Shown piece by piece: positions 13,872 to 14,535 of a stretch of DNA of 64,000 nt. The stretch is from Loxodes magnus (Eukaryota; Ciliophora; Karyorelictea; Loxodida; Loxodidae): positions 1,302,001 to 1,366,000 of the forward strand of contig CAMPDV010000009.1 of the NCBI GenBank assembly GCA_946699065.1. Reading direction: 5' to 3'. The position numbers were made by a program, and so were the translations under genes. Each line of letters begins with the position of its first letter. Positions within the stretch are counted from its first letter, which is position 1. The notes beneath the pieces are model-generated. The model had not been told where the DNA came from. It did not search any database and worked only from the letters and a program-made list of their open reading frames with translations.

Positions 13872-14535
13872 TCAAGCATTTGGTTGTAACACAAAATCTC
13901 TTGCTCCTGAAATAGCCTTATCTGCAGCATATTGTCTAATTTTTGTTTTCCAATCTGTAAATAATTAAGAACTTACCCTTTCGACATTTTGCAAACCCTA
14001 TTAAATTCGTAACTGCAAGAGAACTTGCAAAAATATCTACAATACACCAAAAAATGTCCAAGCTTATTATATTTACTAGTAAGAAGAAAAGTCATACAAC
14101 TGAATTTGAAATAAGCCCTATCCAGAAAATTGAACTGTCTTTTGTATTCAAATTTTTTTATTAGTCTTCATTCAAACTTTCGAATATCCATTCTTCTTTT
14201 CCATTCTCTGCAACTATATTTTTCCATCTTAACCCAACTAGAAGTCTACCTGTTATATTCTAAGTAGTTCAAAAATCTAAAGAGAGTAGAATAGCAACTA
14301 AAATAAAAGTGAAAATTTGGCTTTATCCTGTGAAGTAGAAAATTATTAGATAAGTACCAAGCGCAGTTATTTTGAAAATTAGATGAAAAAAGCAAGCTCA
14401 TGGATGACTACTGCCATCAAGCACGCCAGAACCATATGAAATTGAAGGTGGTTAATAAGAAGATTGTTATTTAGGCTAAACAATTTACTATGTTCCCTCA
14501 CTTAAATTGATATCATAATCTAATCCCTCAGCCAT
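13872..14535 (-). CDS. TVP23: TVP23-family Golgi membrane protein
   Basis: 213 residues in two exons, ATG 14535 to TGA 13874-13872. The hallmark is [19 protein letters not shown] followed by EEWIFESLN, matching the TVP23/FAM18 core; the Trp of DFW is encoded by TGA at 14269-14271, and two more Trp (SHPW, SVVW) also use TGA. Four membrane segments are visible in the family arrangement. A 22-nt intron (13955-13976, GTAAGT...TTACAG) splits the codon before [13 protein letters not shown], and removing it restores the frame. TVP23 proteins act in late-Golgi/endosome membrane traffic. The stop is TGA, so this small gene alone shows both meanings of the codon. Confidence 0.95.
13955..13976 (-). other. 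22-nt intron in TVP23
   Basis: GTAAGT...TTACAG. Removing it restores frame into [13 protein letters not shown]. Confidence 0.92.

Follow-up and report, generated by a model that had tools for sequence, protein, structure and literature searches.

UGA as tryptophan and as stop in a 64-kb window of ciliate, most likely karyorelict, DNA

The window, by which we mean the whole stretch of 64,000 nucleotides that was analysed, has a GC content of 24.8%, and a Pfam scan of 29 of its 33 coding segments named ordinary eukaryotic proteins. There are no frames of at least 150 codons when the three standard stops, or TAA and TAG, are taken as stops; with TGA alone as stop there are 210. A codon model trained on the window itself assigned about half of the sequence to coding regions. 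A search for homologous loci in viral contigs (with synaptojanin and mitochondrial processing peptidase beta, MPP-beta) and in genome contigs (with aldo/keto reductase, AKR) found no relative; no ciliate collection was among them.

A TVP23 (DUF846) gene of 213 codons plus stop occupies positions 14535..13872 of the reverse strand (PF05832, E = 1.1e-44). A 22-nt intron of the form GTAAG...CAG (13955..13976, reverse) connects the frame with the last exon. In-frame codons include three TGA (14398-14400, 14269-14271, and 14092-14094, reverse), six TAA, and three TAG, and the gene ends on a further TGA (13872-13874, reverse). An earlier note, made from the sequence alone, had placed TVP23 here and claimed that the Trp of its DFW motif, which we take to be invariant, is encoded by TGA. 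Frame reading puts that residue on the TGA at 14269-14271, and the two additional sense TGA and the terminal TGA are present as claimed. The Pfam score was 152.3 with Trp at the TGA sites, 150.0 with Tyr, and 146.7 with Phe, Trp being the best of ten residues tried, which favors Trp as the probable reading at these positions.

Several other genes on the reverse strand combine sense TGA with a TGA end. MEMO1 (19740..20620; PF01875, 248.8 bits when spliced across a 23-nt intron) has four sense TGA, one of which falls on the Trp of FCHW in the PDB alignment; its terminal TGA stands six codons past the point where the alignment with human MEMO1 stops, and the human chain goes on for five more residues. 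A PP2C phosphatase (30411..31930) has two 19-nt introns, three sense TGA, and the end TAG-TGA-TGA, and scores 168.1 bits when spliced vs. 146.1 for the unspliced 3′ segment alone. The DHHC palmitoyltransferase (33625..34303; PF01529) contains a 22-nt intron and three sense TGA and ends on TGA, with 100.1 bits spliced and 94.8 for the first segment. The synaptojanin-like SAC/5-phosphatase (37479..40473; PF22669, PF02383) contains a 19-nt intron and five sense TGA; its stop is probably the TGA at 37479-37481, the alternative being a TAA eight codons further. An AGC-type kinase (42660..43962; PF00069, E = 1.1e-53; 19-nt intron, three sense TGA) and a TKL-type kinase with a kelch-like tail (51992..53845; PF07714 and PDB alignment, six sense TGA) both end on TGA. 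In the former, a run of TAG-TAG-TAA-TAG (42696-42707, reverse) lies 12-15 codons ahead of the end and is either four glutamines or an older tandem stop.

On the forward strand, the aldo/keto reductase (35498..36385) has three sense TGA and MPP-beta (55744..57237) has one, which faces Gln in the best alignment; both end on TGA. DNAAF3 (57912..59315; PF14740, PF14737) has six sense TGA and ends TAA-TGA. A cysteine-rich protein (45907..50010), about 1,370 codons long and hydrophobic at its C-terminus, uses 21 sense TGA vs. 9 TGG and ends on TGA; it has no Pfam match at E 0.001. A glycoside hydrolase 28 (GH28, pectinase-like; 62260-63606) differs from the genes around it in using 12 TGG and no sense TGA, and both of its PDB matches below 1e-15 are named pectin lyase-like superfamily protein. 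The reverse strand also carries a cation channel with Ion_trans and EF-hand matches in at least two pieces (21274-25497), and an acidic protein of 1,304 codons, apparently made of divergent repeats, with 14 TGG vs. 2 TGA and no Pfam match (5717-9631).

Gene finding used the self-trained codon model seeded with eight segments; a second variant added introns, and a third added start and stop costs. Every variant mis-splices some genes. Variant 3 breaks MEMO1, which variant 2 has right by homology, and a gene at 28.6-29.4 kb and the 3′ end of PP2C are mis-read by all three, as far as the frames show. The raw finder counts of 75, 80, and 91 TGA were dropped, and a curated count of 66 was used instead. 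The curated set consists of 18 gene ends, in each of which the stop is the first TGA after a hand-set coordinate. It leaves out an Atg8-like gene, a COPI-associated gene, and the N-terminal part of the cation channel, together with four ORFs whose end or reality is doubtful (2-538, 2223-2693, 3754-4915, and 41991-42371). The entry at 28.7 kb is a last exon only (62 codons), and the MEMO1, synaptojanin, GH28, and channel entries begin at incomplete 5′ ends. The 9,656 codons of these 18 genes (29.1% GC) comprise 66 sense TGA, 72 TGG, 501 TAA, 158 TAG, 171 CAA, and 40 CAG. Sense TGA is present in 15 of the 18 genes, makes up 0.68% of all codons, and accounts for 66 of the 138 Trp codons.

The residue encoded by sense TGA was assessed by Pfam rescoring, in which TGA was set to Trp or to F, Y, C, R, G, S, L, Q, or K in synaptojanin, TVP23, and DNAAF3; fewer alternatives were used for the TKL kinase and AKR (F, Y, C, R) and for PP2C (Y alone). 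The synaptojanin segment, with its two domains summed, scored 407.5 bits with Trp, 397.0 with Phe or Tyr, and 386.7 with Cys. AKR scored 131.5 with Trp and 129.3 with Phe or Tyr. For DNAAF3 the sum over two domains was 307.8 with Trp, 306.8 with Phe, and 306.2 with Tyr, the C-terminal domain favoring Trp and the N-terminal domain scoring better with eight of the nine other residues. The TKL kinase favored Trp over Tyr with PF07714 (215.8 vs. 213.5); PF00069 ran contrary (Tyr 191.8, Trp 188.3). In PP2C, Tyr was ahead by 0.5 bit (146.6 vs. 146.1). Taking PF07714 for the kinase, Trp was the best residue in five of the six genes and led Tyr by 18.4 bits when the six were added.

The earlier note had asserted that the dual use of TGA is fixed by conserved Trp residues in seven further genes (PP2C, MEMO1, AKR, DHHC, synaptojanin-like, AGC kinase, and DNAAF3), and had proposed tabulating the residues aligned to TGA. 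Each of the seven does contain in-frame TGA; a conserved Trp at every one was not found. Judged by the best PDB alignment at each site, Trp stands opposite 7 of 15 sense TGA; opposite the remainder are Q, Q, Y, S, I, S, Y, and F. The 15 sites are distributed among AKR (2 of 3 on Trp), MPP-beta (0 of 1), MEMO1 (1 of 2), the TKL kinase (2 of 5), the 5-phosphatase domain (1 of 2), and PP2C (1 of 2). Since the background frequency of Trp is near 1.3%, seven of 15 is far above chance. Together, scores and alignments support Trp as the likely meaning of UGA inside genes.

It could be argued that TGA is the only stop here, and that TGA inside genes reflect lesions in pseudogenes, introns that were missed, selenocysteine codons, or edited sites. 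The finders do place some TGA in wrong frames (in the 28.6-29.4 kb gene and at the 3′ end of PP2C), and introns with lengths divisible by three would evade a finder that works by frame change. This explanation is nevertheless extremely unlikely: sense TGA stand in otherwise open frames in 15 of the 18 curated genes, well-conserved segments of MEMO1, PP2C, AKR, the TKL kinase, and the 5-phosphatase have TGA aligned with Trp, and Cys in place of Trp costs synaptojanin 20.8 bits.

Both TAA and TAG are in frame in all eight genes for which this had been claimed. Read as Gln, Glu, or Lys, TAA gave synaptojanin scores of 407.5, 403.9, and 404.4 bits, and TAG gave 407.5, 405.5, and 404.8. With the two codons changed together, the corresponding values were 131.5, 129.8, and 128.2 for AKR and 181.0, 174.9, and 179.1 for the M16 match. 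In GH28 (152.1, 150.2, and 153.0), Lys was ahead of Gln by 0.9 bit. Gln was therefore the best residue in three of four genes, with small margins over Glu and Lys; these three residues often occupy the same variable surface positions. The scores support glutamine as the probable reading of UAA and UAG inside genes.

The TGA ends of the 18 curated genes were chosen as such, and the unbiased test of UGA as stop is a comparison of frames across 25 gene models. An in-frame TGA lies within 14 codons past the decoded end in 15 of the 25 models, and in 3 and 6 of the 25 in the shifted frames. UGA is supported as the stop at gene ends. Homology scores, alignment columns, and gene ends thus agree on UGA as both tryptophan and stop, the central proposal of the earlier note.

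Codon usage changes close to these ends. In the last 20 codons of the 18 genes, TAA was observed 6 times (19.2 expected) and CAA 16 times (6.0 expected), and these were the most depleted and the most enriched of all codons; TAG was observed 8 times (5.8 expected). The Gln total of 32 is about that expected (32), and therefore it is the choice of codon that shifts and not the residue. The TAA share of Gln codons is 0.19 in the last 20 codons vs. 495/838 (0.59) elsewhere (Fisher p = 1.0e-5; within-gene permutation p = 1.5e-4), and p stayed below 1e-4 on omission of any one of the 18 genes. In the next four 20-codon steps upstream the TAA share is 69, 69, 70, and 50%. No depletion of TAG was detected in the last 20 codons of the 18 genes (p = 0.35). 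TGA is absent from the last 20 codons (2.6 expected, p = 0.08), which is partly built in by the rule that put each stop at the first TGA beyond a coordinate set by hand. The last 33 codons hold one TGA and seven TGG (vs. the rest, p = 0.06), and the sense UGA closest to any stop is 33 codons away.

Two local features of stop TGA were considered as signals and rejected. The base following TGA is T at 9 of 18 stops and at 12 of 66 sense positions (p = 0.012, four bases tested, uncorrected), a bias too weak to tell the two apart. GC over the 60 nt downstream is 17.8% after stop TGA and 27.8% after sense TGA, which merely reflects the end of coding sequence.

Two genes apparently end on UAA. The Atg8-like gene (32970..33347, reverse; PF02991) reads NLD and then TAA (32970-32972), three codons beyond the conserved terminal Gly at which all five PDB alignments shown finish. 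Its next in-frame TGA (32580-32582) is 130 codons on, and the intervening stretch scores as non-coding (-30.2 nats). The COPI-associated protein (27161..27711, forward; PF08507) has one sense TGA and introns of 26, 16, and 20 nt (27269-27294, 27444-27459, and 27576-27595, forward), and scores 67.3 bits when spliced vs. 23.2 for an unspliced segment. It ends PPAT-TAA (27709-27711), the next in-frame TGA is 172 codons on, and the intervening stretch scores -22.5 nats; this end rests on coding potential because the Pfam domain stops 20 residues earlier. The simplest reading of both ends is that UAA is probably an occasional stop. The statement that UAA and UAG are read as glutamine, although borne out by the Pfam scores, is therefore incomplete as a full account of these codons, and the UAA stops are the sole refinement that our analysis makes to the earlier reading. 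It has reportedly been suggested by Seah et al. 2022 (Peer Community J. 2, e42) that a small minority of karyorelict stops are UAA. A literature search for this remark led to PMC11441545 alone, whose passages do not contain it.

Alternatively, UGA could be the only stop and both UAA ends could be products of assembly indels that hide a TGA. At each of them a nearby TGA stands, by eye, in another frame and could be made in-frame by an indel of one base. Such indels appear to be infrequent because MPP-beta, DNAAF3, AKR, the TKL kinase, and synaptojanin are open apart from short GT-AG introns, an argument tempered by the incomplete joins in the cation channel and in the gene at 28.6-29.4 kb. In addition, the avoidance of UAA before stops points independently to residual termination at UAA, and no sense TAA occurs in the last 20 codons ahead of the TAA stop in either gene. 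We consider the indel explanation possible but unlikely, and keep occasional termination at UAA as the preferred reading.

The twelve introns are 16-26 nt long (mean 20.2), one being of 16 nt and none of 15. None of the twelve lengths is divisible by three, and the finder, which depends on frame change, would miss introns of such lengths. Two candidates were dropped from this set, one from the 3754-4915 ORF and the other an alternative within MEMO1. The best PDB match of MPP-beta is 7tgh_3B (2.2e-95 vs. 2e-79 for the next), 7tgh presumably being a Tetrahymena complex. Passages of PMC11441545 give a mean of 19.3 and a mode of 17 for Loxodes magnus introns, and describe depletion of UGA and UAA, and not UAG, over about 20 codons before its stops. 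The earlier note had assigned the window to the karyorelict code; the codon assignments, the tiny introns, and a depletion near stops that affects TAA and spares TAG all support that assignment, the last two traits having both been published for L. magnus. We conclude that the window very probably consists of ciliate nuclear DNA that uses the known code of NCBI table 27, a karyorelict being the most likely source.

This position-dependent UGA code is already known and has been published for karyorelicts. In L. magnus (passages of PMC11441545) and Parduczia sp. (passages of PMC4967479), as here, UAA and UAG are Gln and UGA is Trp or stop according to position. L. magnus shares with the window introns near 20 nt, the depletion of UAA but not UAG within about 20 codons of stops, and AT-rich 3′ flanks, GC being 16.2% in the 50 nt after 17 TGA ends here vs. 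18.6% in its 3′ UTRs. The curated coding sequence differs, at 29.1% GC vs. 33.5% (both L. magnus values from passages of PMC11441545), so that the source is likely to be another species. Sense UGA, at 0.68% of codons, exceeds the 0.120% given for Parduczia in passages of PMC4967479, and the two likely UAA stops are a further difference from the published table 27 karyorelicts. Passages of PMC6935857 describe Karyorelictea with UGA as stop and UAR as Gln and do not report UGA as Trp.

In Condylostoma magnum (table 28), likewise, all three stop codons are also sense codons that are avoided before true stops, and eRF1 is inferred to recognize UAA, UAG, and UGA (passages of PMC4967479). A heterotrich code of this type, with all three codons as regular stops, would accommodate the apparent TAA ends of the Atg8-like and COPI-associated genes, the TAA or TAG immediately ahead of TGA in 3 of 18 ends (DNAAF3, PP2C, and a kinase at 10.5 kb), and the TAR run ahead of the AGC kinase end. 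It is very unlikely on the remaining evidence, given that only two of the 20 ends judged are UAA-like, no end calls for UAG, and UAG shows no depletion ahead of stops. Moreover, about 95% of heterotrich introns are 15 bp, in a range of 15-16 (passages of PMC11441545), as opposed to the 16-26 nt and absence of 15-nt introns here, and sense UGA is 0.042% in C. magnum vs. 0.68% in the window (passages of PMC4967479).

A ciliate of another class, such as a relative of Plagiopyla frontata, might have evolved the same ambiguous code independently, and the window contains no suitable phylogenetic marker. P. frontata is a known case of convergence in which UAR is Gln and UGA serves as stop and rarely as Trp, 3 of 240 proteins having it at a highly conserved Trp (passages of PMC10553269); sense TGA occurs in 15 of 18 genes here, the two counts having been made differently. 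The Loxodes-like set of traits also fits the window, and we regard an independent origin as highly improbable. Similarly little likelihood attaches to a non-karyorelict that arrived by itself at the same position-dependent UGA code, in which UGA makes up about half of Trp codons and UAA is a minority stop, between tables 27 and 28. The table 27 karyorelict code thus remains our preferred interpretation.

What the window adds to that code is quantitative: the UGA share of Trp codons, and an exchange of TAA for CAA within 20 codons of the stop that is visible in as little as 64 kb. This exchange and the two apparent UAA stops support a release factor that still sees UAA near the mRNA end. Swart et al. 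propose a model in which translation proceeds by default and the transcript end supplies the override that brings about termination (passages of PMC4967479). The window fits this model in that sense and stop UGA differ by distance to the gene end and weakly by the next base. Along the gene body, Gln would be inserted at UAA and UAG and Trp at UGA; close to the mRNA 3′ end, the release factor would prevail at UGA and occasionally at UAA. The trans-acting parts would be Gln tRNAs for UAR, a Trp tRNA reading UGA, and eRF1, and the poly(A) tail and its binding protein may aid termination. The 64-kb window yielded no tRNA genes, and the Pfam scan of 29 of its 33 coding segments gave no eRF1. In practice, gene finders that assume standard stops would fragment the genes on such contigs.

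The TGA share of Trp codons is uneven among the 11 genes with at least five Trp codons (permutation p = 0.00085), ranging from 0 of 12 in GH28 and 2 of 16 in the acidic repeat protein to 21 of 30 in the cysteine-rich protein. In Blastocrithidia, uneven use of reassigned codons has been ascribed to avoidance in highly expressed genes (passages of PMC12153298). That trypanosomatid resembles the window in using one codon both as stop and as sense, in reading UGA as Trp, and in the uneven spread of reassigned codons among genes, and it differs in that UAR is Glu and UAA is the sole stop (passages of PMC12153298). The lack of sense TGA in GH28 perhaps reflects recent gain of the gene or high expression. 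A gene of 611 codons at 17282-19117 (forward), in which cysteine clusters with a weak RING match flank a long Gln-rich stretch, has 64 TAA, 27 TAG, and no Trp codons.
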